64,000 bases of DNA from Allobrachymonas sp. (GTDB lineage: Bacteria > Pseudomonadota > Gammaproteobacteria > Burkholderiales > Burkholderiaceae_C): positions 62,001 through 126,000 of the forward strand of contig JAUMWT010000002.1 in the NCBI GenBank assembly GCA_030529505.1, written 5' to 3'. Shown in pieces: positions 1,793 through 43,496 of the stretch. The position numbers were made by a program, and so were the translations under genes. Under the pieces are notes generated by a model, which was not told the DNA's origin, did not search any database, and saw only the letters and a list, made by a program, of their open reading frames with translations. Within the stretch, counting starts at the first letter, position 1, and each line of letters starts with the position of its first letter.

Positions 1793-1836
1793 TGGAAGTA
1801 ATGGAAGTGACGCAAGAAACGGAACAAGGGCCGCCC

Positions 1837-3207
1837 ATGATCTGGAACGAACTCGAATCCGCCCTGGCCCAGCGCCGCGCGCAAGGCCTGCTGCGCACGC
1901 GCCGCACCGTGCAATCGCCCGCAGGGCCGCAAGCGGTGGTGGATGGGCAAGCGCTGCTCTCCTTTTGCAGCAACGACTATCTGGGCCTGGCCGCCGATGC
2001 GCGCGTGGCCGCTGCCGTGGCCGAGGGCGCGCAGCGTTGGGGCGCGGGCAGCGGCGCTTCGCATTTGGTGTCGGGCCATCTGGAGCCGTTCGATCGGCTT
2101 GAAGAGCGGCTCGCGATCTTCACCGGCTTTGAGCGCGCGCTGTTTTTTTCCACTGGCTACATGGCCAATCTGGCCATCGTGCCCGCGTTGGCGGGGCGGG
2201 GCGATGCGGTGTTTGCCGACCGGCTCAACCACGCTTCGCTGATCGATGCGGTGCAACTTTCTCGCGCCGAGCATGTGCGCTACGCCCACAAGGACATGGT
2301 CGCGCTGGAACGTTTATTGGCGCAATCCACCGCGCGCCGCAAACTGATTGTGAGCGATGCTGTTTTCAGCATGGATGGCGACCTGGCCCCCTTGCGCGAA
2401 CTGCTGGCGCTGGCCGAACGCTTCGACGCCTGGCTGGTGATTGACGACGCCCACGGCCTGGGCGTGCTCGGGCCGCAGGGCCGGGGCAGCCTGGCGCACT
2501 TGGGGCTGTCAGCAACGCCGCGCATCATCCTCATGGGCACGCTGGGCAAGGCTGTGGGCGTGAGCGGCGCTTTCGTCGCCGCATCGGCCCCGGTGATCGA
2601 ATGGCTGCTGCAAACCGCGCGCACCTACATCTTCACCACCGCCGCCAGCCCCGCCGTGGCTTGCGGCGTGCTGGCCGCGCTGGAGGTATTGGCCAGCCCC
2701 GATGGCGATGCGCGCCGCGCCCATTTGCAGCGCTTGATCGCGCATCTGCGCAGCGCCCTGGCCGATTCGCCCTGGCGCTTGCTGCCATCGGCTACGGCCA
2801 TTCAACCCCTGCATGTGGGCGATAACCATGCCGCGCTGGCGCTGCAACATCGCCTGATGCAGCAAGGGCTGTGGGTGCCTGCCATTCGCCCGCCCACCGT
2901 GCCGCCGGGCACGGCGCGGCTGCGCATCTCTTTATCGGCGGCGCACACGCTGGCCGATGTGGATCGGCTGGTGGCTGCCCTGCCTGAGAGTGCCCTGCAC
3001 GAATCCAGTAGCCAAGTGGTCGCTGCGGATCGGGATGGGATGCGAGGCACGAGCCGCAGCAACGGCTCCAGCCATTGCGAGGACGAGCAACGAAGCAGAG
3101 CGCCCAAGTCCGCAGATGCGCGCGGCGCGGTGATTGGTGCAAAGCATCCCAACCATTTGTTGATGCCGCCAGCGGCAGCAGAGGCCAAGGCCCCGCCATG
3201 CGTTTGA
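1837..3207 (+). CDS. bioF: 8-amino-7-oxononanoate synthase with C-terminal extension
   Basis: BioF condenses pimeloyl-ACP (or -CoA) with L-alanine to give KAPA; alpha-oxoamine synthase family, PLP-dependent. Visible motifs: SNDYLG (45-50), GSGASHLVSG (71-80), DDAHG (203-207) and the PLP lysine in GTLGKAVG (Lys238). ATG 1837 (MIWNELESAL) has AAGGG about six bases upstream and matches the usual family start. An ATG at 1792 overlapping the bioA stop is the alternative. The family normally ends near residue 383 (VDRLVAAL), but this protein runs on for about 73 low-complexity residues rich in Ser, Arg, Ala and Lys. That tail's DNA shares a 13-mer (3031-3043) with the family A repeats found elsewhere in the window, so it may be a decayed repeat read in frame. 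The enzyme core is complete. Confidence 0.93.
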   Translation: MIWNELESALAQRRAQGLLRTRRTVQSPAGPQAVVDGQALLSFCSNDYLGLAADARVAAAVAEGAQRWGAGSGASHLVSGHLEPFDRLEERLAIFTGFERALFFSTGYMANLAIVPALAGRGDAVFADRLNHASLIDAVQLSRAEHVRYAHKDMVALERLLAQSTARRKLIVSDAVFSMDGDLAPLRELLALAERFDAWLVIDDAHGLGVLGPQGRGSLAHLGLSATPRIILMGTLGKAVGVSGAFVAASAPVIEWLLQTARTYIFTTAASPAVACGVLAALEVLASPDGDARRAHLQRLIAHLRSALADSPWRLLPSATAIQPLHVGDNHAALALQHRLMQQGLWVPAIRPPTVPPGTARLRISLSAAHTLADVDRLVAALPESALHESSSQVVAADRDGMRGTSRSNGSSHCEDEQRSRAPKSADARGAVIGAKHPNHLLMPPAAAEAKAPPCV

Positions 3208-4094
3208 CTCTTACACCGATGGATGCTTGCGTGCCGGCCATCTCCGGCCATGCGGCGGCCACCGCGCCTGTTGGCTTGAATGAAGCCGTGAGCCAAGCAA
3301 GCACGGGCATGCGCGCACCGCTGGTGTTGCTGCACGGCTGGGGGCTGGATCGCCGTGTGTGGCAACCCTTGCTGCCCCACTTGCAAGCCTGCGCGCCGCA
3401 CTTGCCCGTGTGCCTGGCCGATTTGCCCGGCTACCACGGCAGCAGCTATGCAGGCGAAGATGCGCAAGCCGTGGCGCACGCCTTGGCCACGCAACTGCCG
3501 ACCGGTTGCACGCTGGCGGGCTGGTCGCTGGGTGGCATGCTGGCGCAATTGGCGGCAGTGCGTTCGGCTGCGGTGCGGTCAGCGTCGGGGCAGCCAAGCA
3601 GTCGCATCGCCCGCCTGGTGCTCGTCGGCAGCACGCCCAGCTTTGTGCGGCGCGAGGGCTTTGCTTGCGCCCAGCAGCCCGTTTTGCTCAGCGCCTTTGC
3701 CAAGGCCGTGCGTGCCCTGCCCGCCAGCGTGCTGCCGCGCTTTGCCACGCTCAGCAACCAGGGCGACAGCCGCGCCAAAGCCATCAATCGCCAGCTGCTG
3801 GCGCTGACCCAGCCGCCGCTGCCCGATCAAGCCGCGCTGCTGGCCGGGCTGGATTGGCTGCAAACCTTGGATCTGCGCGCACAAGCTGCCCGCATCACGC
3901 AGCCGACGCTGCTCATCCACGGCGGGCAAGACGGGCTGATGCCCTTGGCCGCGGCCCAATGGCTGGCCGATCATCTGCCGCAGGCCGAGCTGCTGACCCT
4001 GCCTGACGCCGCACACGCTCCTTTCTTGCACGACCCCGCCCAATGCGCCGCTGCGCTGGCGCGCTGGGCGGGTGCCATGGATGTTGAGGCATGA
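3198..4094 (+). CDS. bioH: Alpha/beta hydrolase, pimeloyl-ACP methyl ester esterase
   Basis: Likely BioH, which removes the methyl ester from pimeloyl-ACP methyl ester made through BioC and so ends pimelate-moiety synthesis. The 298-residue protein shows the oxyanion region LLHGWGLDRRVW (44-55), the nucleophile elbow GWSLGG (Ser110), a late HGGQDGLMP acid-bearing loop and the catalytic-histidine segment AAHAPF. ATG 3198 overlaps the end of bioF by ten bases and has AAGG seven bases upstream. An internal ATG at 3309, just before the LLHG motif, would give a length nearer the usual 255, so the exact start is open. Location between bioF and bioC supports BioH over a generic esterase; BioG-type esterases lack this sequence pattern. 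Confidence 0.88.
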   Translation: MRLTLTPMDACVPAISGHAAATAPVGLNEAVSQASTGMRAPLVLLHGWGLDRRVWQPLLPHLQACAPHLPVCLADLPGYHGSSYAGEDAQAVAHALATQLPTGCTLAGWSLGGMLAQLAAVRSAAVRSASGQPSSRIARLVLVGSTPSFVRREGFACAQQPVLLSAFAKAVRALPASVLPRFATLSNQGDSRAKAINRQLLALTQPPLPDQAALLAGLDWLQTLDLRAQAARITQPTLLIHGGQDGLMPLAAAQWLADHLPQAELLTLPDAAHAPFLHDPAQCAAALARWAGAMDVEA

Positions 4095-5074: not shown

Positions 5075-5862
5075 CCGACGCACACGCCTGCACCCACGCC
5101 TACTTCATCGCCGGCACCGATACCGGTGTTGGCAAAACCTTCGTCACCGCTTTGCTGCTGCGCACGGCGCATCTGTCGGGCCTGCGCGCCCTGGGCATGA
5201 AGCCCGTGGCCGCCGGGGTGGATGCCCACGGCCGCAACGAAGATGTGCTGGCCTTGATGGCCGCCAGCAGCGTGGCGGCTGCCCCCGAAGATGTGAACCC
5301 GTTTCTCTACCAGGCGGCCGTTTCGCCCCACATCGCCGCGCGCGATGAAGGCCGCCCCGTCGATCTGGCTGTCATCGCCGCTGCCTGCCAGCGTCTGGCC
5401 GCGCAGGCCGATGTGCTGCTGGTGGAGGGCGTGGGCGGCTGGCGCGCACCCTTGTCCGACACGCTGGACAGCGCCGACCTGGCCTGCGCCCTGCAACGCC
5501 CGCAGATGCCCGTGATTTTGGTGGTGGGCCTGCGTCTGGGTTGCCTGAACCATGCCTTGCTCACGGCCGAGGCCATTGCCGCGCGCGGGCTGCGGCTGGC
5601 CGGTTGGCTGGGCAACCACATCGACCCCGCGATGCAGCGCCAAACCGACAATGTGCAGTATCTGCAAACACAATTGCAGCAAACTTTTGGCGCGCCTTGC
5701 CTCGGCTTGGTGCCGCATGCACCCAAAGGGTCGAATCTGCTTGGCCATGCCGACAAGGCAAGCGCTGCACGGGAATCACTCGATGCCCTGGCGCAACGCC
5801 TGCTGCCCAGCCTGCATCTGCCGTGGCTGCCATCGCCTGAATCACCCCTGGCCCGGCGCTGA
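5071..5862 (+). CDS. bioD: ATP-dependent dethiobiotin synthetase
   Basis: BioD carboxylates 7,8-diaminopelargonate with CO2 and ATP, closing the ureido ring of dethiobiotin. The 263-residue protein begins with the P-loop FIAGTDTGVGKT, followed by the substrate lysine in GMKPVAAG and the VEGVGGWRAPL motif. Its ATG at 5071 overlaps the bioC stop (ATGA). It is the last gene of the operon; biotin synthase (bioB) is not in this window and must lie elsewhere if present. Two stable hairpins follow directly after the stop. Confidence 0.95.
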   Translation: MTDAHACTHAYFIAGTDTGVGKTFVTALLLRTAHLSGLRALGMKPVAAGVDAHGRNEDVLALMAASSVAAAPEDVNPFLYQAAVSPHIAARDEGRPVDLAVIAAACQRLAAQADVLLVEGVGGWRAPLSDTLDSADLACALQRPQMPVILVVGLRLGCLNHALLTAEAIAARGLRLAGWLGNHIDPAMQRQTDNVQYLQTQLQQTFGAPCLGLVPHAPKGSNLLGHADKASAARESLDALAQRLLPSLHLPWLPSPESPLARR

Positions 5863-31158: not shown

Positions 31159-31436
31159 TCGGCGCAGGCAGTAAGCGCATCGGCAGGCGCGCCGTGCCTG
31201 TACAAAGCCAGTACTGCGTGCGTGGCCCATGCGCCAACCCAATGGGGTGGGCGCTATCATGGGCCTTGCAAATGCGATTGTTGATGCAGCGCAGCGCCCG
31301 CCGTTTTGATGCAAGCAATGCAAGCGGCACAGCGGCCATTTGTCATTTGTACTGCGATTCACCCTGTGATTGGCCCTGTGCCCCAAGCCGAGCCTGCAAG
31401 CGTTTAATCCCAAGTTGACCACTCCCAGCCACCACC

Positions 31437-32546
31437 ATGCAAACCGTTGAACAGATTTACCACCGCGAAATTGCCGCGCGCGGCTTTCAAAGCGACCCCG
31501 CCCAACTGCACGCCGTGGCTGCGCTGGATCGCTGCGTGCGCGAATGGGCCGGGTTCGAGCAGGCGCGTTCCAGCTTTTTGAAAAAGCTGTTCAGCAAGCC
31601 CAGCATTCCGCGCGGCGTGTATATGTACGGCGGCGTGGGCCGAGGCAAAAGCTTCTTGATGGATTGCTTTTACGAGGCCGTGCCGGTGCAACTCAAAACG
31701 CGCCTGCACTTCCACGAATTCATGCGCGAGGTGCACCGCGAGCTGGGCAAGCTGCAAGGCGTGGCCGACCCCCTGCAAGTGCTCGGCGCCAAAATGGCGC
31801 AGCGCTTTCGCCTGATCTGCTTCGACGAATTCCACGTGGCCGACGTGACCGACGCCATGATCCTGCATCGCCTGCTCGAAGCCCTGTTCAGCAATGGCGT
31901 GGGCTTCGTCACCACCTCCAACTTCAAGCCCGACGAGCTCTATCCCAACGGCCTGCACCGCGATCGCATCCTGCCCGCCATCGATCTGCTCAATGCGCGG
32001 CTGGAAGTCATCAACGTCGATCACGGGGTGGACTACCGCCAGCGCCCGCTGGAATATTTGTCCACCTACATCACCGATCCGCAACCGCAGGCCGACGAGC
32101 AAATGCAGCACATCTTTGCGCAACTGGCCACCGGGGCCGATGCGCCCGGCGCCCAGCACGATGTGGAACTGGGATCGCGCCAGATTGCCGTGCGCAAGCG
32201 GTCGGGCCATGTGGCCTGGTTCGACTTTCGCGAGCTGTGCGACAAGCCCCTGTCGCAAAACGACTATCTGGAGCTGGCCGGCCTGTTCCAGACCATCATG
32301 GTCTCGGGCGTGCCCAAAATGGGGCCGGCCATGGCCTCGATGGCGCGGCGCTTCACCCTGCTGGTGGACGTGCTCTACGACCGGCGCGTCAAACTCGTGG
32401 TCGCGGCCGAAGTGCCCGCGCCCGATTTGTATACCGAGGGCACGCTTGCGCACGAATTCGTGCGCACCGTCTCGCGCCTGCAAGAAATGCAATCGGCCGA
32501 ATACCAGGCTCTGGAGTACCGCCATGTGGACAGTTCCATCACCTGA
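31437..32546 (+). CDS. zapE: Cell division protein ZapE (AFG1-like ATPase)
   Basis: A 369-residue AFG1/LACE1-family P-loop ATPase. ZapE associates with the division ring and destabilises FtsZ bundles; mitochondrial relatives are AFG1. Walker A is YGGVGRGKS (64-72), Walker B is RLICFDEFHV, sensor-1 region FVTTSNFKPDELYPNGL, and the C-terminal FDFRELCDKPLSQNDYL is characteristic. ATG 31437 matches the usual start. The 278 bases upstream of it show no gene or clear terminator for lpdA. Confidence 0.93.
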   Translation: MQTVEQIYHREIAARGFQSDPAQLHAVAALDRCVREWAGFEQARSSFLKKLFSKPSIPRGVYMYGGVGRGKSFLMDCFYEAVPVQLKTRLHFHEFMREVHRELGKLQGVADPLQVLGAKMAQRFRLICFDEFHVADVTDAMILHRLLEALFSNGVGFVTTSNFKPDELYPNGLHRDRILPAIDLLNARLEVINVDHGVDYRQRPLEYLSTYITDPQPQADEQMQHIFAQLATGADAPGAQHDVELGSRQIAVRKRSGHVAWFDFRELCDKPLSQNDYLELAGLFQTIMVSGVPKMGPAMASMARRFTLLVDVLYDRRVKLVVAAEVPAPDLYTEGTLAHEFVRTVSRLQEMQSAEYQALEYRHVDSSIT

Positions 32547-33377: not shown

Positions 33378-35399
33378 TTACGCCGCCACCGGACGGCGCA
33401 CCAGATGGCTGCTGCCGGGGTGGATGGGCAGCAGGGCGGTTTCGGGCTGCTTGCCCGCCGCATCGGGCGTGCCGTTCTGAGCGTCGTTGTAGCGTACGAA
33501 ACGCTTGCGCTCGACCGTGGGATCGGGCACGGGCACGGCCGAGAGCAGGGCTTGCGTGTAAGGGTGCTGAGGGTTGGCAAAGAGATCTTCCACTTCGGCC
33601 GTTTCCACGATCTGGCCGCGGTACATCACGGCCACGCGGTGGGCGATGTGCCGCACCACCGACAGATCGTGTGCGATGAAGAGGTAGCTCATGCCCAGTT
33701 CAGCCTGCAAATCGCCCAGCAGATTGATGATTTGCGCGCGGATGGACACGTCGAGCGCGGACACCGGCTCGTCGCAAATCACGAGCTTGGGGTTGAGCGC
33801 AATGGCGCGCGCGATGCCGATGCGCTGCAACTGCCCGCCCGAAAACTCGTGCGGGTAGCGGCTGGCGTGTTCGGGCGCCAGGCCCACGCGGCGCAGCAGC
33901 TCGTCGATGCGTTCGGCGCTGATGGGCAGCCCGTGGATGATGAAAGGCTCGCTCAGCAATTCGCGCACGGTGTAGCGCGGGTCGAGGCAGCCGTGCGGGT
34001 CTTGAAACACCATCTGCATGTGCTGGCGCGCGGTGCGCAGCTGCTCGCGGTTCATGCGCAGCAGGTCTTGCCCGCAGAAGCGCACAACGCCGCTGCTGGG
34101 CTCGTGCAGGCGCAGGATGCAGCGGCTCAGGCTGGATTTGCCGCAGCCCGATTCGCCCACAACGCCCAGCGTTTCACCGGCGCGCACCTGCAGGCTGACA
34201 TTGCGCACGGCGTGTACGGCATGCGGTTTTTTCCAAGGCAAAAGCGGGCGCCCGCCGTGAAAGGTTTTGCACAAACGCTCCACTTCCAGCACGGGGGGCG
34301 CGTTGTTTGCATCGTCCGCGTGCGGGGTGTGGCTGTAGGGCAGGTGGTGGTCGCAGCCGTGCGCCTTGCCGGGGTGCCGGATGCTGGCGCTGCAGAACTG
34401 GCTGGGGTGGTGGCAGGCCGTGGCGTGGCCTTGATCATCTGCCTGGAGGGTGGGAACGGCGTGGCGGCAGGTGTCGCTGGCTTGCGCGCAGCGCGGGTGA
34501 AAGGCGCAGCCTGCAGGCAGATCGGTGAGCGAAGGCGGCTGCCCCGGGATGGGGTGCAGGCGCTGCTGGCGCTGGGCGTCGATGCGCGTGAGCGAATCGA
34601 GCAGGCCGTGCGTGTAGTGGTGGCGCGGGGCGCTGAACAGGGTTTTGACCGCGGCGCTTTCGACCACGCGCCCGGCGTACATCACCAGCACGCGGTCGGC
34701 CTGGCTGGCCACCAGGCCCAGATCGTGCGTGATGAGCACGAGCGCGGTGTTGCGCTTCTCGCGCAGGCGCGCGAGCAGTTCCATGATTTGCGCCTGCACG
34801 GTCACGTCCAGCGCGGTGGTGGGCTCGTCGGCGATGAGGATGCGCGGGTTGTTGGCCAGGGCCATGGCGATCACCACGCGCTGGCGCATGCCGCCCGAGA
34901 ACTGGTGCGGGTAGTCGCGGGCGCGCTCTTGCGGGTTGGGAATGCCCACTTCGTGCAGCAGCTCCACGGCCTGGGCCAGCGCGGCTTTCTGGCTCATGCG
35001 CCGGTGCGAGCGAATGGCCTCGGCGATTTGCTCGCCCACGCGGTGCACGGGGTTCAGGGCCGAGAGCGGATCCTGAAACACCATGCCGATGTCTTTGCCG
35101 CGCAGCTGGCGGCGCTGGGCCTCGGGCAATTGCAGGATGTCGCGGCCATCGAGCAGCACCCGCCCGCTGATGTGCGCCGTTGGGGGCAGCAGGCCCATGA
35201 TGCTCAGGGACGAAATCGATTTGCCCGATCCGCTTTCGCCCACGATGGCCAGGCACTCGCCCGCGTGCAATTGCCAGTTGGCGCCATTGACGGCATGTAC
35301 CACGCCGTGGGCGGAGTCGAAAGCGACGGACAGATGCTGCACGTCCAGCAGCGGCGCGTGCTGGGGCGGGTGGTGGCAGTGGGAGCAGGTGGCGGGCAT
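33378..35399 (-). CDS. Dipeptide/nickel-type ABC transporter, fused double ATP-binding protein
   Basis: A 673-residue cytosolic protein holding two complete Dpp/Opp-type nucleotide-binding domains (DppD- and DppF-like) in one chain. First domain: Walker A GESGSGKS, signature FSGGMRQRV, Walker [13 protein letters not shown], followed by the oligopeptide C-terminal motif [14 protein letters not shown]. Second domain: [30 protein letters not shown] His/Asp-rich linker ([19 protein letters not shown] region, about 335-355) joins them and could bind metal, which is inference. ATG 35399 lies one base after the MFS stop, so it is the last gene of the transporter operon. Confidence 0.92.
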
Positions 35400-35400
35400 G

Positions 35401-37122
35401 TCAGGATGCGGCTGGCTTGGGAGGAGTGGATGAATCGCGGCCCAGTTGGTAGCGCATGATCAGCAGGATGATGATGCCGGCGCTGAAGGCCAGCAGCAGA
35501 ATCGTCACGAACCAGGGCAGCGCCACGTGTGCGCCGTGGCTGTCTTTGCTCAGCAGGGCGCCAATGCCCGTGCTGCCCAGCAATACGGCCAGGCCGCCAA
35601 AGGAATTGAGCAGGCCGTAGTAGGAGCCGAGCCGCCGCTCGTGCGCCAGGCGCGCCACCAGATCGTTGGTGAAGGGGTTGGCCAGCATCTTGCCCAGGGT
35701 GAACAGCACGATCATGGCCAGCGCGGGCGCGACGGCCCAGGGCTTGGCCAAAGGCGGCAGCAGGCTGGCCAGCGCAATGGCGGCAAAGCCCGCAGCCATG
35801 ATCGAAAAGCCCATCGGAATGGCGCGCTTCCAGCCCAGGGTGCGGCGCGCCCAGGCCGTGAGGCTGACCTGTCCCACGATCACCATGCCCGAGCTGATGG
35901 CCATCATCACGCCCAGCATCTTGTCGTGGCCCATGGAGCGCGTGAGCTCCACCGGCAGCGCCAGATAGAGCTGGTTGTAGGCCAGCAGATAGGTGCTGTT
36001 GGCCAGCGCAAACCACAGGAACATGCGGTTGCCCAGCACCTCGCCCCAGCCCTTGAGCACGGATTCGTTCCGGTGCAGCGGCGCCAGATCGGGGAACAGG
36101 AAATAATAAGCCAGCCACACGCCCACGAAAATGCCCGCCGCCACCAGGCAGGCGAAGCGGTAATCCACCAGCAGCACCAGCGTGCCGATCAAGGGGCCGA
36201 GCGTGGCGCCCAGTTGCAGCGTGACCGAACTCATGGCAAACACCTGCGTGCGCGGCAGGCCGGTGTCGTGCTCCACCTCGCCGGCGGCGCGGGCGATGGA
36301 TGATTCCACCGCGGGCGAAAACAGCGCGGCGGCAAAGCCGATCAGCAACACCCCGGTGACCACGCCCGCGAGTTGCGTGCTCAGGCCCAGCATCACGAAA
36401 CCGGCGATGCGAATGGGCACGCCTACCAGAATCACCTGGCGCGGGCCGTAGCGATCAGTCAGCGTGCCGCCCAGCACAAACAGGCCCTGTTGCGAGAACG
36501 AGCGCAGGCCCAGAATCAGGCCGATGGTGGCGCCGGGCAGGCCCAGCGTTTGCCCCAGATAGGTGGCCAGATAGGGCAGCACCATGTAAAAGCCGATGTT
36601 GAAACACAGCTGCGTGACCAGCAGCAGCTGCACATAGGTGGGCAGGCCCGAAAAATCGCGCAGCACGGCAAAGCGCGCCGCCAGGCCTGCCAGCAGCCCG
36701 GCGGGCGGTGTGGATGCAGAAGCAGGCGGCGTTGCGGGGGGCGAGGCGGTTGAGGCGCCTGGCTGGGCAGAGGTAGTGGTGGCAGCGGCAGTGGCTGGCC
36801 CTGCCGCCGTTGGCCTGCCGGCTTGTGCGCCGTGCGGCGCGGCATGAGGTGCCGGGGTGGGCGGCTCGTTGCCGCTTGTGCCATTTGCTTCATTTGCGCC
36901 ACTGGTGTCATTTGCCGACGTGACCGCTGCGCTTGCGGCAACTGCCCGGACATGCGCCGTCTCCCGGGCCGGGCCGTTGGGCTTGCCTGGCTTGGGGTGG
37001 CCTTGCTCGCCCAGGCCCGCTGCCGTTGCAGCCGCAGGGGCATCGGGCGCGGCCGCAGCAGTGTGCGCTGCGGCAGAAGGCTCGGCAGAAAACAGATCAG
37101 GGTGCGAGGGCTTGGCGCTCAT
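35401..37122 (-). CDS. MFS transporter with long disordered N-terminus
   Basis: A 573-residue major facilitator with about 12 hydrophobic segments from residue 145 onward. The cytoplasmic loop motif GGTLTDRYGPRQ between helices 2 and 3 is the MFS signature A region. The first ~130 residues are low complexity, rich in Ala, Pro, Thr, Gly and Ser. ATG 37122 overlaps the upstream permease stop (ATGA). Placement inside a peptide/nickel-type ABC importer operon mirrors CntE, the metallophore exporter of staphylopine loci, so export of a product that the ABC system then re-imports is inferred. Confidence 0.85.
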   Translation of the reverse strand: MSAKPSHPDLFSAEPSAAAHTAAAAPDAPAAATAAGLGEQGHPKPGKPNGPARETAHVRAVAASAAVTSANDTSGANEANGTSGNEPPTPAPHAAPHGAQAGRPTAAGPATAAATTTSAQPGASTASPPATPPASASTPPAGLLAGLAARFAVLRDFSGLPTYVQLLLVTQLCFNIGFYMVLPYLATYLGQTLGLPGATIGLILGLRSFSQQGLFVLGGTLTDRYGPRQVILVGVPIRIAGFVMLGLSTQLAGVVTGVLLIGFAAALFSPAVESSIARAAGEVEHDTGLPRTQVFAMSSVTLQLGATLGPLIGTLVLLVDYRFACLVAAGIFVGVWLAYYFLFPDLAPLHRNESVLKGWGEVLGNRMFLWFALANSTYLLAYNQLYLALPVELTRSMGHDKMLGVMMAISSGMVIVGQVSLTAWARRTLGWKRAIPMGFSIMAAGFAAIALASLLPPLAKPWAVAPALAMIVLFTLGKMLANPFTNDLVARLAHERRLGSYYGLLNSFGGLAVLLGSTGIGALLSKDSHGAHVALPWFVTILLLAFSAGIIILLIMRYQLGRDSSTPPKPAAS

Positions 37123-38012
37123 TTGGATTGGATTTCGACGTCGGTGGCGTTGGAGCCCAGCGCCGCAAACAGAATGCTGATGATCACGATGGTGGCCGCC
37201 GGGGCCACCAGCACCAGCGGGGCGCGGTCGGCGAAGCCGCGCGCTTCGGACAGCATGGCGCCCCACTCGGCCTGCGGCGGACGCGGGCCCAGACCCAGAA
37301 AGGACAGGCCGGAAAACGCCAGCAGCTTGCTGGGCAGGCGCAGCGCCATGTAGGTGAGCAGGGGGCGCGCGATATTGGGCCAAACGTGGTGCAGCAAAAT
37401 CCGGCGCGAGCCAGCGCCCAGCGCAATGGCCGCTTCCACGTAACCGGCGGCCAGCGTGCGCGTGGTGAGCTGGTAGGCCAGGCGCGCAAACACCACCCAG
37501 CCCAGCGCCGTCATGCCCACGGCCAGCGTCAGCGTGCCGGTGCCAAAGGCGGCCACGAAGCCCAGCATGACGAGGATGTTGGGGATGATGACCAGGGTGT
37601 CGTTGAGCGTGAGCGCGACGGTGGCCAGCAGGCCGCCGCGCCAGGCCGCCAGGATGCCGATGGCCGCGCCGATGATGAAGCTCACCGCCAGCGACAGCGC
37701 GGCCACGCCCACCGACAGCACCGCGCCGTGCGCCAGCCGCGTGAGCACGTCGCGCCCGAACTGGTCGGTGCCCAGCGGGTGCTGCAGCGAGGCGGGCAAG
37801 AGCCGCTTGCCCAGCGCCACCTGATTGGGGTCGTAGGGGCTGAACAGCAGCACGGCGGCAAACAGCAGGGCCAGCGCCAGCAGGCCGCCCAGCGGCAGCC
37901 AGAACTGCCACTGAAAAGGTTTTTTGCGCCGCGCCGGGCGCGCAGCCGCCGCAGGGGGCGGGCAGCCCGCAGCAGCGGGGGCGGATGAAGGGGAGGGGCA
38001 GCTCGTCGTCAT
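37119..38012 (-). CDS. Dipeptide/nickel-type ABC transporter permease (DppC-like)
   Basis: A 297-residue inner-membrane permease. After a Pro/Ala-rich cytosolic start (about 30 residues) comes the first helix (WLPLGGLLALALLFAAVLLF), the conserved HPLGTDQFGRDVLTRLAHGA motif of OppC/DppC proteins, four to five further helices, and the EAA loop in YVEAAIALGAGSRRILLHHVWPN (excerpt EAAIALGAGSRRI). ATG 38012 is preferred over an in-frame TTG at 38033. It starts 26 bases after the partner permease and overlaps the MFS start. Confidence 0.9.
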   Translation of the reverse strand: MTTSCPSPSSAPAAAGCPPPAAAARPARRKKPFQWQFWLPLGGLLALALLFAAVLLFSPYDPNQVALGKRLLPASLQHPLGTDQFGRDVLTRLAHGAVLSVGVAALSLAVSFIIGAAIGILAAWRGGLLATVALTLNDTLVIIPNILVMLGFVAAFGTGTLTLAVGMTALGWVVFARLAYQLTTRTLAAGYVEAAIALGAGSRRILLHHVWPNIARPLLTYMALRLPSKLLAFSGLSFLGLGPRPPQAEWGAMLSEARGFADRAPLVLVAPAATIVIISILFAALGSNATDVEIQSK

Positions 38013-38037
38013 GGCAGGAAATGAATGCGGCAAAGCC

Positions 38038-38970
38038 TCAGCGGTAGCGGATGCGGGGATCGATCAGCACGGCCAGCACGTCGCTCAACAGGCCCACGCC
38101 CAGGCCCGCCACCAGCGTGACGAAGAGGCCGCCCTGCAGCATGGGCAGGTCGAGGTTGGTCACGGCGTCGTACAGCAGATTGCCCATGCCGGGAATGGTG
38201 AAGATCACTTCGGTGACCACGCTGCCGCCCATCAGGCTGGCCAGAAAGGTGCTGCCAATGGCCATCGTGCCCGTGAGCGACACGCGCCCGGCGTGCCAGA
38301 GCACGCGCCACGGCGGCAGGCCCTTGGCGCGCGCCGTGCGGATGAAGGATTGCTTGAGCGCGTCCACCGTTTCGCTGCGCACCAGTTGGGCCAGCAGGCC
38401 CATGGGCACGAGCGAGGTGGCAATGACCGGCAGCACCATGTGCCTGGGCGTTGCCCAGCCGCCCGTGGGCAGCCAGCGCAACTGCACGGCCAGAACCAGA
38501 ATCAGCAAGGGCGCCAGCACGTGCATGGGCACGGAAATGACCGTGCGCGTGAGCAGATTGAGCGCCCGGTCGAACCAGCCGCCTTGCCGCGCCGCGGCGA
38601 ACAGGCCCAGCGGCACGGCCATGATCACGGCCAGCGCCATGGCCAGGCCGCCGAGCAGGCCCGAGATGCCCAGCGCCTTCATCACCGCCGGCCGCACGGG
38701 CTTGCGGCTGGCGTAGCCGTAACCAAAATCGCCCTTGAGCAATTGTTTGGTGAAGCTGGCGTACTGCACCAGCAAGGGGCGATCCAGTGCCAGCTCTTCG
38801 CGGATGGCTTGCAGCACCTTCGGGTCGGGCTCGGACTCGGCGATGCGCGCGCGCAGCGTGGCGCGCGCCACATCGGTGCCGGTGAGCGTGGGCAGTGCAA
38901 AAACGAACACCGACAAAGCCAACAGCACCAGCGGCACGGCCACGAGTCGTCGCAGCAAAACGGCGAGCAT
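38038..38970 (-). CDS. Dipeptide/nickel-type ABC transporter permease (DppB-like)
   Basis: A 310-residue inner-membrane permease of the OppB/DppB/NikB group: an N-terminal helix (RRLVAVPLVLLALSVFVFAL), the DPKVLQAIREELALDRPLLVQYASF segment (excerpt REELALDRPLLVQY), GDFGYGYASRKPV, and the EAA motif region FIRTARAKGLPPWRVLWHAGR. ATG 38970 begins 13 bases after the binding-protein stop. Together with the DppC-like partner it forms the translocation pore. Confidence 0.92.
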   Translation of the reverse strand: MLAVLLRRLVAVPLVLLALSVFVFALPTLTGTDVARATLRARIAESEPDPKVLQAIREELALDRPLLVQYASFTKQLLKGDFGYGYASRKPVRPAVMKALGISGLLGGLAMALAVIMAVPLGLFAAARQGGWFDRALNLLTRTVISVPMHVLAPLLILVLAVQLRWLPTGGWATPRHMVLPVIATSLVPMGLLAQLVRSETVDALKQSFIRTARAKGLPPWRVLWHAGRVSLTGTMAIGSTFLASLMGGSVVTEVIFTIPGMGNLLYDAVTNLDLPMLQGGLFVTLVAGLGVGLLSDVLAVLIDPRIRYR

Positions 38971-38982
38971 GGCACGCTTTCC

Positions 38983-40572
38983 TTAGGGGTTCAGCGTGGT
39001 GGTATGCGTCACCAGGTGCTGGTCCAGCGGATCGTGCACGGCCTCTTTCACGCGGCTGGAGAAGACGCGGCGCGAGGTGTCGTTGTACACCGGCAGGCCC
39101 ACCTTGTGGTCGATCAGGTATTGCGCGGCCTTGGCGAAGATGGCGGCGCGGTCTTCGGGCTTCTCGGCCGTGGCCGCGCTTTGCCAGATGGCGTCAAAGT
39201 CTTTTTCGCAGAAGGCGTTCAGGTTGTAGGAACCTTCGCAGCCGAAGTCGCTGGCCAGGAAGCTGGCGGCATCGGGCATGTCGGTGTAGAAGCTGCGCGA
39301 GAGCAGCACCAGATCGTGCTCCTTGGCCATGACCTTGGGCTCGAACACGGTGTTGTAGTCCACCACGTCCAGCGTGATGGCAAAGCCGCCTTGCTCCAGA
39401 TTGTCTTTGATGACGTTGGCGGTGGCGGCCAGTTCGGGGCGGCCGGGGTAGGTCATGAGGTTGAGCTTCAGGTCTTCGGGCTTGACGCCGGATTCGGCAA
39501 TCAGCTTCTTGGCCTGATCCAGAAAGTCGGCCGGGCGGGCGGCGGCCTTGGGCGCCCAGCTCACGCCGCCGAAGTAGCCGGCGGCCGGCGCGCCCATGCC
39601 TTCGAGCACGGCGGCCACGATGGCGTCGCGGTCGATCAGCAGGTCAATGGCCTGGCGGATTTTCTCGTTCTTGAGCGTGGGCTTGGTGAAGTTGACGTAG
39701 AGCGTGGAAGCGCGCGGCAGCTCGATGTTGTCGGCCACCAGGGCGCTGTCTTTCTTGGCCTCGAGCACGTTGTTGGGCGCGATGGAGTTGGCCACGTGCA
39801 CTTCGCTCACTTTCAGGGCATTGAAGCGGGCGGCTGCATCAGCGATGAAGCGCACTTCCACACCGGCCAGTTGGGGCTTGCCGCCCCAGTAGTCGTCAAA
39901 GCGTTCCAGCGTCAGGCCCACGCCGGCTTCGTGTTTGCTGATTTTGTAGGGGCCGCTGCTGAAGCCGATGGGGTTGACGGGGTCGCTGGCGAAAGCGCCC
40001 TTGGCCAGAATGGCGGTGCTCGGGCCGCCCAGGCGCAGGGGCAGGACGGGGTCGGGCTTGGTGGTGGAGATTTTGACGGTGTCGGCATCCACCGCTTCGG
40101 CCACGAGGCCCGTGCCTTTGAGGGCGCGCGGCGGCGTGGCGGCTTTCATGATGTGGCTCAGCGAGGCGACGACGGCTTCTGAATCCAGCATGCTGCCGTC
40201 GTGGAATTTCACGTCGGTGCGCAGGTCGAATTCCCAGCTCGTGTCGCCAGTGCGGCGCCATTGCGTGGCCAGGGCGGGATGGGCCTTGCCGTCGAGCGTG
40301 ACGCGCACCAGGGCTTCGGTCGCGCCGGCTTGCATCAGGTTGTAGGCGGCGTCGCCTTCAATGGCCAGTGTGCCTCTGTCTTTGAAGGACGTGGCAATGC
40401 GCAGGACGTTGTCGCCCGCAGGCGCGGCGCTGGCTGCAGGGGCCGAGCCGGGCGCGGAGGCGGCTGGCGGCGCGGCTTTTTCGCCGCAGGCCACCAGCGC
40501 CACGGCCAGCGACAGGGCCGAAAGCCCGTAGGCAAAGGGGCGGCTGACAAAAGAATGTTTGGAGGTTTGCAT
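38983..40572 (-). CDS. ABC transporter substrate-binding lipoprotein, family 5
   Basis: A 529-residue SBP_bac_5 (DppA/NikA/CntA fold) protein. The signal peptide ends in the lipobox ALVAC (Cys29), followed by an Ala/Pro/Ser linker (30-55). Body motifs: LVRVTLDGKAHPALATQWRR, WEFDLRTDVKFHDGSMLDSEAVV (excerpt DLRTDVKFHDG), GSGPYKI-like FSSGPYKISKH and FVNFTKP-like YVNFTKPTLKNEKIRQAIDLLIDRDAIV (excerpt LKNEKIRQAIDLLIDR), typical of the family. It would bind the imported ligand at the inner-membrane face. ATG 40572 is chosen over an upstream in-frame start because of the signal peptide. Ligand unknown. Confidence 0.92.
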   Translation of the reverse strand: MQTSKHSFVSRPFAYGLSALSLAVALVACGEKAAPPAASAPGSAPAASAAPAGDNVLRIATSFKDRGTLAIEGDAAYNLMQAGATEALVRVTLDGKAHPALATQWRRTGDTSWEFDLRTDVKFHDGSMLDSEAVVASLSHIMKAATPPRALKGTGLVAEAVDADTVKISTTKPDPVLPLRLGGPSTAILAKGAFASDPVNPIGFSSGPYKISKHEAGVGLTLERFDDYWGGKPQLAGVEVRFIADAAARFNALKVSEVHVANSIAPNNVLEAKKDSALVADNIELPRASTLYVNFTKPTLKNEKIRQAIDLLIDRDAIVAAVLEGMGAPAAGYFGGVSWAPKAAARPADFLDQAKKLIAESGVKPEDLKLNLMTYPGRPELAATANVIKDNLEQGGFAITLDVVDYNTVFEPKVMAKEHDLVLLSRSFYTDMPDAASFLASDFGCEGSYNLNAFCEKDFDAIWQSAATAEKPEDRAAIFAKAAQYLIDHKVGLPVYNDTSRRVFSSRVKEAVHDPLDQHLVTHTTTLNP

Positions 40573-40944
40573 GGCTGTGAAATCACCTTTCTTTTGGGTC
40601 AATGGATGCGCTGACAAAGCAGAAAAAACATCCCGTGCTGCATCCATCGTTCAAAGCGCGGGATAGAGAAAAGAATTTGAAAAGAACCGGCATCGGGGGC
40701 CTGAGCCGTTTGGGACGATGGCTTGAGCGGCCTGGCGAATCCGGCGGCAACCCCGGCTTGCAGTGATTGGGCATGGGATAACGGCTTGGCTGCGGCGGCT
40801 GGAGGGCGGCGAGCCGCGCAGGGCGGTTTGCGCCAAGCCAGGCCGTTGCGGGGCTCGGGCGCGGCTCGCGTCCGGCTGCAGCTTCCGACCGCGTTCAACC
40901 CAGGTTCCATGCCAGTGTGCCGCCACCATCATCAATCCCCTGGC
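40573..40944. other. Spacer between methyltransferase and transporter genes
   Basis: About 372 bases separate the double methyltransferase from the binding-protein gene. An ATCCCG...CGGGAT pair at 40631-40665 could form a loose hairpin; no T-run or gene is visible. A promoter for the transporter genes may lie here, but I could not identify one. Confidence 0.4.
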
Positions 40945-42501
40945 TCATGCCTTTGGCGCATGGCCCCAAACGACGTAGGTTTCGCCATCGTCGTGCTCGC
41001 TGCCCATGGTGCGCAGATTCATGGCGTGCACTTCGTCGAGCAAGCGCCACTGCACGTTGGTGTAGCCCGCGGCTTCGAGCAGGGCGGCCACCTTGGGCGC
41101 GTGGTTGTCTTGCATCAGCGGCAGGTTGTTGCGGGTGCGGGCGTTGTACACCTCGTGCCACAGCTCGTACCAGGGCTTGCCCACGTAGTCGCTTTGCTTC
41201 CAGCCCTTGGCGAACCAGGTGCCGTCAAACACGGCCAGCACGCCGCCGGGCTTGAGCAGCTTCTTGGCCTCGGTGAGGGTGCGCATGGGGTCGGGCAGGG
41301 TCCAGAACAGGTAGCGGCTCACCACCGCGTCGTAAGAGGCAGGCTCGCCCGTGGGGGTGGTGGCATTGCCCAGTTCAAACGTCACGTTGTTCAGGCCCTG
41401 CGCCTGCGCGTCCTGGCGGGCGCGCTTGAGCATGTTTTCGGCGGTGTCGATGCCGCGCACCTGATGGCCCATGTGCGCCAGGTTCAGGCTCACGAAGCCG
41501 GGGCCGCAGCCCAGGTCGAGCACATTGGCGGGCGCGGGCGGCAGCACGCTGGCGAATTCCTTGCGCCAGGCCGCATCGGCTTCTTCGCGGTTGTAGCCGG
41601 GGGCGTGCTGCACTTCGGTGTCGTACTCCTGCGAGCGTTTGGGGTCGTTCCAGTAATTGAGGATTTGCTCGGTAACGGAATTTTTGCCCTGCTCCACAAA
41701 GGGCCGGCTCTTGATGCCCATGAGCACGCGGTCGTCAAAGCGTTGCCAGATGGTGTTGACTTCGGTGCAGCCGGCCTGGCGCAAGGCCAGCGCGTGCAGG
41801 CTCAGGGTGTTGAGCTTGGAGGTGTGGCGGTCGCCGTAGAGCTTGTCGGCCTCGGCCTGGCGCTGGGCGCGCTCGGCAAAGGCGGGCTTGAGCGCGGCTT
41901 CCTGCTCCATCGCCTGCCACCAGGCATCCCAGTCCAGCACGTCGGGCTGGGCCAGCGAGCGTTTGAGGGCGCGGTCTTTGTCGGCCTCGGCCAGATGGCG
42001 CGAGACGCGGTCGGGCAGCTCGTAGGCGAAATGGTCGCCATTCAAAAACATGCCGCCTTCGGGCATGAGGGCGGCAACGTCGCTGTAAGCCTTGATGAGC
42101 TGCTCGGGCCGCAGCCAGTGCAGGGCGGTGGTGGAAACGGCCGCGTCGATCTGCTGCGTGGGCAGTTGCGCCGTCCAGTCGGGCGCGCGCATGTCCACGT
42201 CCACGATCGTGACGCGATCGCCAAAACGCGCCAGAAAATGGCGCGCCATGGTCAGCAGCACGGGGTCGGAATCGACCGCAATGGCCTTGGCCAGCGGAAA
42301 GGCATCGAGCATGCGCTGGGTGAGCGAACCCGGGCCGCAGCCCAGGTCGATGAAGGTGAATTGCGTGCCCACATGGTCGGCCAGGGCCTGCTGCATCACG
42401 GCAAAGCGGTCTTCGCGAAATTCGATGTAGGCGGTCTGCTGCCGGTCCCACGAGGCCAGCAGGGCGGCCCAATCGGTGTTGGCGTTGTTTGAGGCGTTCA
42501 T
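40945..42501 (-). CDS. Tandem two-domain class I SAM-dependent methyltransferase
   Basis: A 518-residue protein made of two Rossmann methyltransferase domains. Domain 1 (about 25-265) has motif I FIDLGCGPGSL (50-60) and the acidic SAM-ribose contact AVDSDP. Domain 2 (about 275-515) has VLDLGCGPGFVSLNL (327-341), GIDTAENML, and the late VFDGTWF and LPLMQDN motifs. Domain 2 closely resembles the separate methyltransferase encoded just upstream, so one arose by duplication. ATG 42501 has AGGAG at six bases and overlaps the upstream stop (ATGA). Substrate unknown; linkage to importer and exporter genes suggests modification of a transported small molecule. Confidence 0.85.
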   Translation of the reverse strand: MNASNNANTDWAALLASWDRQQTAYIEFREDRFAVMQQALADHVGTQFTFIDLGCGPGSLTQRMLDAFPLAKAIAVDSDPVLLTMARHFLARFGDRVTIVDVDMRAPDWTAQLPTQQIDAAVSTTALHWLRPEQLIKAYSDVAALMPEGGMFLNGDHFAYELPDRVSRHLAEADKDRALKRSLAQPDVLDWDAWWQAMEQEAALKPAFAERAQRQAEADKLYGDRHTSKLNTLSLHALALRQAGCTEVNTIWQRFDDRVLMGIKSRPFVEQGKNSVTEQILNYWNDPKRSQEYDTEVQHAPGYNREEADAAWRKEFASVLPPAPANVLDLGCGPGFVSLNLAHMGHQVRGIDTAENMLKRARQDAQAQGLNNVTFELGNATTPTGEPASYDAVVSRYLFWTLPDPMRTLTEAKKLLKPGGVLAVFDGTWFAKGWKQSDYVGKPWYELWHEVYNARTRNNLPLMQDNHAPKVAALLEAAGYTNVQWRLLDEVHAMNLRTMGSEHDDGETYVVWGHAPKA

Positions 42502-43247
42502 TTTTTCTCCTGGGGTTTGAAGCCGCGCACGACGTACAGGCTGTCTTGCGGCCATTCCTGGCTGTGGTATTGGCGATAGACGGCGTTGGCGTGCGCCATC
42601 ATTTCGAACTGCACGTCCACGAAGCCCGCGTCTTGCAGGATGGCGGCCACTTTTTCGGGCGGGTTGTCGTGCATCAGGGGCAGGCTGGCCTGCACCTCGG
42701 GCGTGTAGGAATCAAGCCAGATCTTGTCGCGCGGCTTGCTGGGGTCGCGCTGCTGCCACATCTCGCGGTTTTTGTACCAGGTGCCATCGAACACGGCCAG
42801 CATGCCGCCCGGGCGCAGCAGTTGCAGCGCGCCGCGCGCGGCGGCCAGCGGGTCGGGCAGCGTCCAGTACACCCAGCGGGCGGTGACGACGTCGAAATGA
42901 TTGGCGGGCAGGCTGGCCTGCGGCTGCATGGCATTGCCTTGCACGAAGCGGATGTCGAGCTGGCGATCCGCGGCTTTCTGGCGGGCGGCGGCGAGCATGT
43001 TCTCGCCCTGATCCAGCCCCGTGACCCGATGCCCCAGCCCGGCCAGCAATACGCTGGCAAAGCCCGTGCCGCAGCCGATGTCGGCGATTTGCACGGGCGC
43101 AGGGGGCAGATAGCGTTGGAATTCTTCGCGCCAGACGGCGTCGTCGCGTTCCACGCCAATGCCTTCGGCATGGCCCGCGTCGTATTCATCGACGCAAAGA
43201 TGTGAATTCCAGAAGGCATTGACCTGTCGGGTGGCGCTGGCAGTCAT
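42498..43247 (-). CDS. Class I SAM-dependent methyltransferase
   Basis: A 249-residue single-domain methyltransferase: IADIGCGTGFASVLLAGLGH (54-73) is motif I, followed by GLDQGENML, WVYWTLPDP (125-133), LLRPGGMLAVFDGTWY (143-158) and LPLMHDN. The last motifs are shared with the second domain of the neighbouring double methyltransferase (RYLFWTLPDP, VFDGTWF, LPLMQDN). No ribosome site is visible before ATG 43247. Its stop overlaps the next start, so the two are translationally coupled; it heads the cluster. The 249-base region upstream to marC carries no gene. Confidence 0.85.
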   Translation of the reverse strand: MTASATRQVNAFWNSHLCVDEYDAGHAEGIGVERDDAVWREEFQRYLPPAPVQIADIGCGTGFASVLLAGLGHRVTGLDQGENMLAAARQKAADRQLDIRFVQGNAMQPQASLPANHFDVVTARWVYWTLPDPLAAARGALQLLRPGGMLAVFDGTWYKNREMWQQRDPSKPRDKIWLDSYTPEVQASLPLMHDNPPEKVAAILQDAGFVDVQFEMMAHANAVYRQYHSQEWPQDSLYVVRGFKPQEKK

Positions 43248-43496
43248 GGTTTTTGAGGAGATGTTGGGGACAGTTTGTATGACACATGGGTGAATGTATC
43301 ACCCTTGGGATTGAGAGGCAATCTCAGGCCCATTTTCAGAGGGGCGCGCTCTGGTTTGGGCGGGTGCGCCCTTGTTATGGGCTGGCTGGCGTTCTGCGTG
43401 CGTTTGCGGCGCGCGCCGGGGAGGCGCGGCGCAGCTTGCACGGGCCGGTGAGGCGGCCGAGCCGGCGCATCAAGCGCATCAAGCCCGGCAGGCCCA

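Follow-up and report, generated by a model that had tools for sequence, protein, structure and literature searches.

Methyltransferase genes linked to metal importers of unrelated folds: a putative metal-chelate uptake operon in Allobrachymonas sp.

The 64,000-nucleotide stretch of Allobrachymonas sp. DNA analysed here as a whole (contig JAUMWT010000002.1, positions 62,001 to 126,000; hereafter the window) raises the question why two S-adenosylmethionine (SAM)-dependent methyltransferase genes should share a locus with a nickel/peptide-type importer and a major facilitator superfamily (MFS) transporter. We propose, with moderate confidence, that the locus is a metal-chelate uptake operon, in which the methyltransferases act on or methylate a small metal ligand within a chelate-import cycle. 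Contig C45, which carries the window, is part of a 2.39-Mb genome that is 83.5% complete and belongs to the same genus as the related locus L016. Direct reading of the coordinates confirmed the seven same-strand genes and their order, as described in an earlier sequence-only reading:

42498..43247, minus strand: MT1, SAM-dependent class I methyltransferase from the importer-linked family (Pfam Methyltransf_11/25; 249 amino acids; placed by the tree; 59% identity with a Znu-linked copy located on contig C52)
40945..42501, minus strand: MT2, two SAM domains in fusion, the N-terminal one (MT2-N) from an unrelated family and the C-terminal one (MT2-C) from the MT1 family (518 amino acids; placed by the tree)
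40573..40944, minus strand: spacer of 372 bases between MT2 and the binding-protein gene (read directly)
38983..40572, minus strand: substrate-binding lipoprotein (SBP), SBP_bac_5, closest to Opp5A/NikA (lipobox LVAC)
38038..38970, minus strand: NikB/DppB-like permease (best NCBIfam model Opp2B, 'nickel ABC transporter permease')
37119..38012, minus strand: NikC/DppC-like permease (BPD_transp_1)
35401..37122, minus strand: MFS transporter, MdtH-like, candidate ligand exporter (573 amino acids; adjoins MT2 in locus L024)
33378..35399, minus strand: fused two-ATPase subunit, NikDE/GsiA-like (NikDE/DppDF type), with two ABC_tran and two oligo_HPY stretches

The MT2 start codon overlaps the MT1 stop in ATGA, and from SBP to the ATPase gene the intergene distances are 12, 25, -4 and 1 bases. 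The open frames of MT2 and SBP extend to 42555 and 40647, respectively. Pfam placed one class I SAM domain in MT1 and two in MT2, in agreement with the three that had been counted before.

The supposed co-occurrence of methyltransferase and transporter genes held up in a gene-neighbourhood comparison, in which the linkage recurred far beyond the window genome. For a census, 398 evenly drawn Pseudomonadota genomes were searched at E <= 1e-20 with profile A2, for which Brachymonas sequences were the sole source. This census scores few candidates per genome, such that distant copies may escape it. Nine genomes were positive; the eight besides the window's own hold nine copies (E 2e-35 to 4e-29), with nothing else listed down to 1e-20. 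The family formed by MT1 and MT2-C is rare. All nine copies adjoin, in the same run, a gene for a FecCD permease and/or a FecB-type SBP. The latter was recognised at eight of them; for the second copy of genome G881 the recognised genes were those of FecCD and FecE. In contrast, a FecCD-type importer was found within 1.5 kb of none of the 52 class I methyltransferases pooled from two controls. For the first control a PF08241 search of the same eight genomes gave 30 loci, seven of which belong to the family. No importer SBP or permease lay within 1.5 kb of the other 23, four of which had a match to an ATP-binding cassette (ABC) ATPase only. The second control consisted of 29 generic methyltransferase loci from other genomes of the class, again without an importer SBP or permease within 1.5 kb and with one ATPase match. 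These loci came from profile A6, which was rejected for the census as too generic: 81 of 229 genomes matched, generic methyltransferases reached 5e-29, and only the three matches of the window's own genome (E <= 9e-91) look like members. Profile A3 added one genome, G837 (E 6e-26), which has no importer match within 1.5 kb and was left out of the family. Because A3 includes several members, its score gap is partly by construction.

In plasmid searches 22 loci were examined from the matches listed (20 + 60), hand-picked and not random. Over all 35 loci examined, a non-random sample as well, an importer lies within one gene of the methyltransferase in 28: three of four Brachymonas loci, the locus of genome G204, Proteus, two of five on haloarchaeal plasmids, neither of two in Embleya, and all 21 of the Fec type.

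A second operon was found in the window's own genome on contig C52 (locus L012, 5939-12419). It runs from a 205-amino-acid methyltransferase through znuC, znuB and a ZnuA-like SBP to a 269-amino-acid methyltransferase, the copy sharing 59% identity with MT1, and a gene for a TonB-dependent receptor. The ZnuA-like protein is unusual in that NCBIfam gave no match to it at E <= 1e-15; it occurred in one of 150 drawn genomes, its own. The Znu-type operon and the Nik-type locus of the window together place one methyltransferase family beside two unrelated importer folds in one cell. Divergent on the minus strand just upstream of the C52 operon lie export genes of HlyD type (L012 3811-5187) and MacB type (1798-3777), which possibly encode an exporter for it.

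In a phylogenetic tree MT1, MT2-C and the C52 copy formed a group with branch support of 100/97, MT2-C being about 44% identical to MT1. The family as a whole (34 rows) grouped apart from 10 generic class I methyltransferases on a branch of 90/87, below the 95/80 mark. MT2-N was unrelated to MT1 and MT2-C in the tree and showed a weak likeness to trans-aconitate methyltransferase models. CpaM (NF043040, 'corrinoid protein-associated methyltransferase') was the top NCBIfam model for MT1, MT2 and the C52, Natrinema and Shinella copies; it was absent among the matches listed (E <= 1e-15) for the Sinorhizobium meliloti and Proteus copies. Arsenite methylation was rejected as a function, the ArsM models scoring far below cut-off. 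As judged from sequence, a CntL-like aminobutyryl transferase seems less likely, support for it being absent in the family and in MT2-N: nicotianamine synthase and CntL were not among the listed PDB matches of the former (E <= 1e-8) or the latter (E <= 0.001).

The type of importer gives an indication of the cargo. Among NCBIfam models the window SBP scored best with Opp5A_nikA (239 bits; cut-off 600), followed by NikA (95 bits), DppA (92.6 bits), GsiB (78.8 bits) and CntA (65.9 bits). Its nearest solved structures are the nickel-binding proteins 3t66 and SaNikA (4ofj). The NikB-like permease reached 224 bits with its best model, Opp2B (cut-off 350), and the fused ATPase is 40% identical to the fused ATPases of two haloarchaeal nik loci. 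A dipeptide or glutathione carrier was rejected for the SBP, given the DppA and GsiB cut-offs of 1005 and 594 bits; the scores thus speak for a metal importer, though they stay below the nickel cut-offs. SaNikA binds nickel as a bis-histidine complex. Together with the affinity of the SBP to Opp5A/NikA this favours, as judged from sequence, a complex of a divalent metal with an amino-acid-type ligand as the cargo.

The arrangement of the window is kept in part in its closest relatives. L016 (the reverse of contig C20 of genome G201) has MT1 (65% identity), then a stand-alone MT2-N (74%), SBP (65-67%) and NikB (71%), in which the contig ends. In L024 (genome G202) the end of MarC lies upstream as in the window and is followed by a remnant of the MT1 end, MT2 (79%) and, directly after it, MFS (82%). 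The ratio of non-synonymous to synonymous substitution rates (dN/dS, NG86) was 0.17-0.24 for MT1, MT2, MT2-N, MFS and NikB, the SBP pair being left out as out of frame; between the window and L024 it was 0.21 for MT2 and 0.24 for MFS. With neighbours kept at 65-82% identity under such ratios, the gene grouping of the window exceeds chance by this sequence measure. The MT2-MFS pair being kept in L024 without an importer suggests that MFS is tied to MT2 rather than to the importer, although a deletion caught midway may also explain it. Just upstream of MT2 in L024 (about 5520-5600, minus strand) a leftover MT1 C-terminus marks the lost MT1 gene.

These genes are seldom met elsewhere. MT2 (E <= 1e-40) and the window SBP (E <= 1e-60) were each found in one of 200 genomes drawn from the taxonomic family, namely the window's own. 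Profile A1 was found in one of 399 genomes drawn from the order (E <= 1e-30) and in four of nine genomes of the genus (E <= 1e-20). Among these the copy of G204 is divergent and is adjoined by a Nik/Opp-type importer; an Rfam match to a Betaproteobacteria toxic small RNA lies just upstream of its methyltransferase frame (L026 9823-9888, minus strand). A contig scan with MT2 found no relative. With A1 it gave two loci, L016 and the weak Bacteroidetes relative L017 (29%), which was left out of the family and has no importer match in 20 kb.

Further relatives stand beside other importers. In Proteus mirabilis a family copy with about 25% identity directly precedes a run of SBP and B, C, D and E genes, whose SBP passes the NikA cut-off (624 vs 393 bits) and scores 562 with CntA, below 800. 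Close relatives (E <= 1e-45) occur in five haloarchaeal plasmid records, all of which were examined; a Nik/Opp-type importer adjoins the copy on the Haloterrigena and Natronococcus plasmids. Natrinema was counted as negative; three binding-protein genes and a metal-dependent regulator lie 2-7 kb away. The Natrinema and Haloterrigena copies each have a gene for an MMPL-family transporter at most 4 kb away (L027 11260-14331, L056 4227-7259). On S. meliloti pSymB the methyltransferase lies beside SBP, FecCD and FecE genes. Its binding protein is split in two in strain 1021 (L052 3766-4895) and intact in strain ABS7 (L030). The two pieces fit the description of SMb21431/SMb21432, such that the locus is probably SMb21429-21432. 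The SMb21429-21432 genes are named as iron-related, and increased expression is reported for them during swarming (PMC2848241) or in a tolC mutant (PMC2912261). In the Paracoccus (L136) and Cereibacter (L137) plasmids a pseudoazurin gene (about 3570-3995) stands between the FecBCD-type ATPase and the methyltransferase, and a cobalamin riboswitch precedes the run. On an Agrobacterium plasmid, pieces of a SIP-domain gene and of a NikC-like gene (L140 2699-2956 and 3291-3944) lie next to a partial match to the methyltransferase.

MT2-N has relatives in six plasmid records at seven places, of which the best place of each record was examined. Importers adjoin two of the six. In Streptomyces NBC_01201 the gene is the last of an SBP-permease-permease-ATPase operon with SBP5- and NikB-like products, and in Nonomuraea it lies inside a Peripla_BP_2 - methyltransferase - FecCD - ATPase run after a DUF1980-like gene. 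The S. clavifer relative adjoins genes for salicylate synthase, two ABC proteins, GTP-binding proteins and L32, with a FecCD-type gene about 5 kb away, and that of NBC_01717 follows ATP-grasp, MFS and ATP-grasp genes. The remaining two records, both unannotated, gave no importer match. DUF1980, GTPases of the COG0523 type and additional L32 genes are associated with zinc starvation.

Control signals vary between the loci. Cobalamin riboswitches (RF00174, 104-125 bits) lie upstream of the importer-methyltransferase run in 5 of the 13 Fec-type loci scanned (L046 at its second copy, L053, L136, L137 and L139). Scans of the window, L012, L016 and four loci of Nik/Opp type gave no Rfam match to this riboswitch. 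Between the methyltransferase and SBP genes of the rhizobial type TGA-N9-TCA was present in all seven intergenic regions (shuffle frequency 0.02-0.05 each) and an ICE-like site in five; these regions are related, hence not independent. We take these motifs to be RirA and Irr sites. Fur-like matches (14/19) were seen in two of three intergenic regions of f113; f91 and f113 presumably correspond to rhizobia and Rhodobacterales. For the window promoter a search for Zur, Fur or NikR sites had been suggested; none was seen by eye, which was the only inspection made, and there was no Rfam match either. An operator-like element was found there:

43288..43304, minus strand: operator-like GGGTGA-TACAT-TCACCC upstream of MT1, core GTGATACATTCAC (43290-43302)

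The 13 bases GTGATACATTCAC are unique in the window and common to the region upstream of MT1 in L016; an exact shared 13-mer occurred in 1 of 200 shuffle pairs. The palindrome TGATACAT-N6-ATGTGTCA, first noted at the window promoter, was dropped in favour of it. Two further details concern reading frames. The MFS protein carries a long Ala/Pro/Thr-rich low-complexity N-terminal tail (37122-36700, minus strand) ahead of its first membrane segment, and the tail is shorter in L024; a longer MFS frame of 836 amino acids was rejected as a shadow over NikC. At 31404-32525 (minus strand) a 373-amino-acid frame has no Pfam or NCBIfam match and is overlapped by long opposite-strand frames.

The methyltransferases are the constant feature of these loci, which differ in importer fold, control signal and organism, such that action on a small metal ligand is the simplest common task. 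For the window we infer the metal ligand as methyltransferase substrate, the role of the MFS protein and the direction of the cycle as follows. In the cytoplasm MT1 and MT2 would methylate a small ligand, perhaps one derived from an amino acid; the MFS protein would export the methylated ligand, and the SBP-NikBC-NikDE importer would recapture the metal-ligand complex, the metal most likely being nickel or a similar divalent metal. The three SAM domains together with an exporter gene favour such making, export and recapture for Brachymonas.

Alternatively, the system may only process what it imports: a foreign or host chelate enters, the methyltransferase alters the ligand, thereby releasing the metal or marking the spent ligand, and the Brachymonas MFS protein expels the latter, with nothing being made for scavenging. 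At Fec-type loci, with their lone methyltransferase and no recognised exporter, this account is equally good. The methyltransferase is there mostly the sole enzyme gene directly beside the importer (the pseudoazurin gene joins in two), the S. meliloti SBP is best matched by a ferrichrome/ferrioxamine B carrier (244 bits vs a cut-off of 374), and iron-type motifs occur at relatives. However, L024 keeps MT2 and MFS without an importer, and three SAM domains are many for one unloading step. As processing does equally well at Fec-type loci, we hold the shared claim of action on a metal ligand to be only moderately probable, and processing alone to be rather unlikely. A role in cobalamin or cobalt salvage, with the Nik, Znu and Fec importers bringing in corrinoids or cobalt, would account for the five riboswitches, the proximity of the Cereibacter copy to cobalamin-synthesis genes, the fairly good rank of BtuC models for the Shinella permease (after an F420-0 permease model and below cut-off) and the sub-cut-off CpaM scores of MT1 and MT2. 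It fits poorly with the Nik/Opp-type loci scanned, L012, L016 and the window, where no cobalamin match was obtained, with the iron-type motifs at rhizobial-type copies and with the Shinella SBP, whose best model, below cut-off, is the siderophore SBP EitA; we consider it improbable. Finally, ordinary methyltransferases and a peptide importer may have become neighbours in Brachymonas by chance, as class I methyltransferases are common and several relatives lack importers. Against this stand the nine of nine census copies vs none of 52 controls, three importer folds, two unrelated methyltransferase families and a gene order kept in relatives, which leave a fortuitous arrangement highly improbable.

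A number of observations weigh against action on a metal ligand as the common task. A whole adjoining importer is missing at seven of the 35 loci (three of five haloarchaeal, both Embleya, L024 and L140): in L024 SBP, permeases and ATPase were not found at the locus, where a chloride-channel-like frame, read by eye, follows MFS, and the Agrobacterium plasmid L140, which has only the NikC-like piece beside its partial match, was not counted as positive. In the tree, the copies of Proteus and G204 have long branches and a weak placement. Since family loci supplied the importer references, detection is biased in favour of the family. The Fec-type relatives showed no recognisable exporter gene, as judged with the window MFS as BLAST reference in L044-L051, where other exporter types were not searched, and from annotation elsewhere. 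TGA-N9-TCA also occurs in five of seven intergenic regions outside the rhizobial type, although Rhodobacterales are described as lacking RirA (PMC3413700); the motif is therefore not specific. Among the loci examined the MFS gene was present only at the Brachymonas Nik-type locus. The metallophore-type system supposed in the sequence-only reading is supported in part: the recurrent linkage, the metal-type importer and the MFS gene staying beside MT2 without an importer speak in favour; a sequence resembling CntL or nicotianamine synthase was not found.

Metallophore mining relies on known enzymes, for instance nicotianamine synthase, opine dehydrogenase and non-ribosomal peptide synthetase (NRPS). 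A methyltransferase gene that recurs as a marker next to metal importers of different folds would point to uptake systems overlooked by enzyme-based mining, and it bears on which ligand carries nickel into Nik-type importers. More tentatively, and with considerable doubt, one may think of a new metallophore class built by methyltransferase-fold enzymes alone, without any of these three enzymes. It would be a portable module combined with Nik, Znu and Fec importers and differing metal needs in bacteria and haloarchaea, to which Brachymonas would contribute an MFS exporter of its own; its second locus would add a TonB receptor and perhaps the neighbouring MacAB-type exporter. In the literature searched, with subscription journals mostly outside its coverage, no description of a family-wide methyltransferase-importer link was found, and passages of papers on nickel/cobalt use (PMC2667541), Paracoccus iron homeostasis (PMC9409073) and Helicobacter NiuBDE (PMC7840056) do not mention it. 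Zincophore clusters, according to PMC7438024, have Opp-/FecCD-type importers, MFS/EamA exporters and in some cases extra methyltransferases of unclear role; the idea of a methyltransferase-modified metallophore is to this extent already in print.

Among known systems, the Cnt opine-metallophore clusters share with the window an Opp-type importer and an MFS exporter in one locus, the Opp-/FecCD-type importer with exporter being a mark of Cnt loci. They differ by their CntL and CntM genes, which the sequence-only reading had called absent here. In the window's own, 83.5%-complete genome neither PF03059 (nicotianamine synthase; its reach to bacterial CntL was not checked) nor PF10100 (staphylopine/opine dehydrogenase) had a match, the SBP reached 65.9 bits with the CntA model NF047575 (cut-off 800), and three methyltransferase domains are present instead of CntL and CntM. 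Without a recognised nicotianamine synthase or opine dehydrogenase, the seven-gene locus is not of the Cnt type. CpaM is the top model for several family members, which, however, score only 66-116 bits (MT1 66.4, MT2 115.9, C52 copy 72.2) against a cut-off of 180. The rhizobial FecBCD importers, as on S. meliloti pSymB, have the methyltransferase beside SBP, FecCD and FecE, and differ from the window in importer fold, divergent orientation and the lack of an MFS gene. The Proteus mirabilis locus is presumably the Nik locus of PMC11026637, described there as one of two nickel importers serving urease. It resembles the window in the wider-family methyltransferase directly before a run with a NikA-passing SBP, and differs by a single methyltransferase, unfused ATPases and an MFS gene that was not recognised. 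Closest in importer type are NikABCDE and Opp5A, with which the window shares the best SBP model, the nearest nickel-binding structures and a nickel-type model for NikB, and from which it differs by SBP and NikB scores below cut-off, a fused ATPase and the joined methyltransferase and MFS genes.

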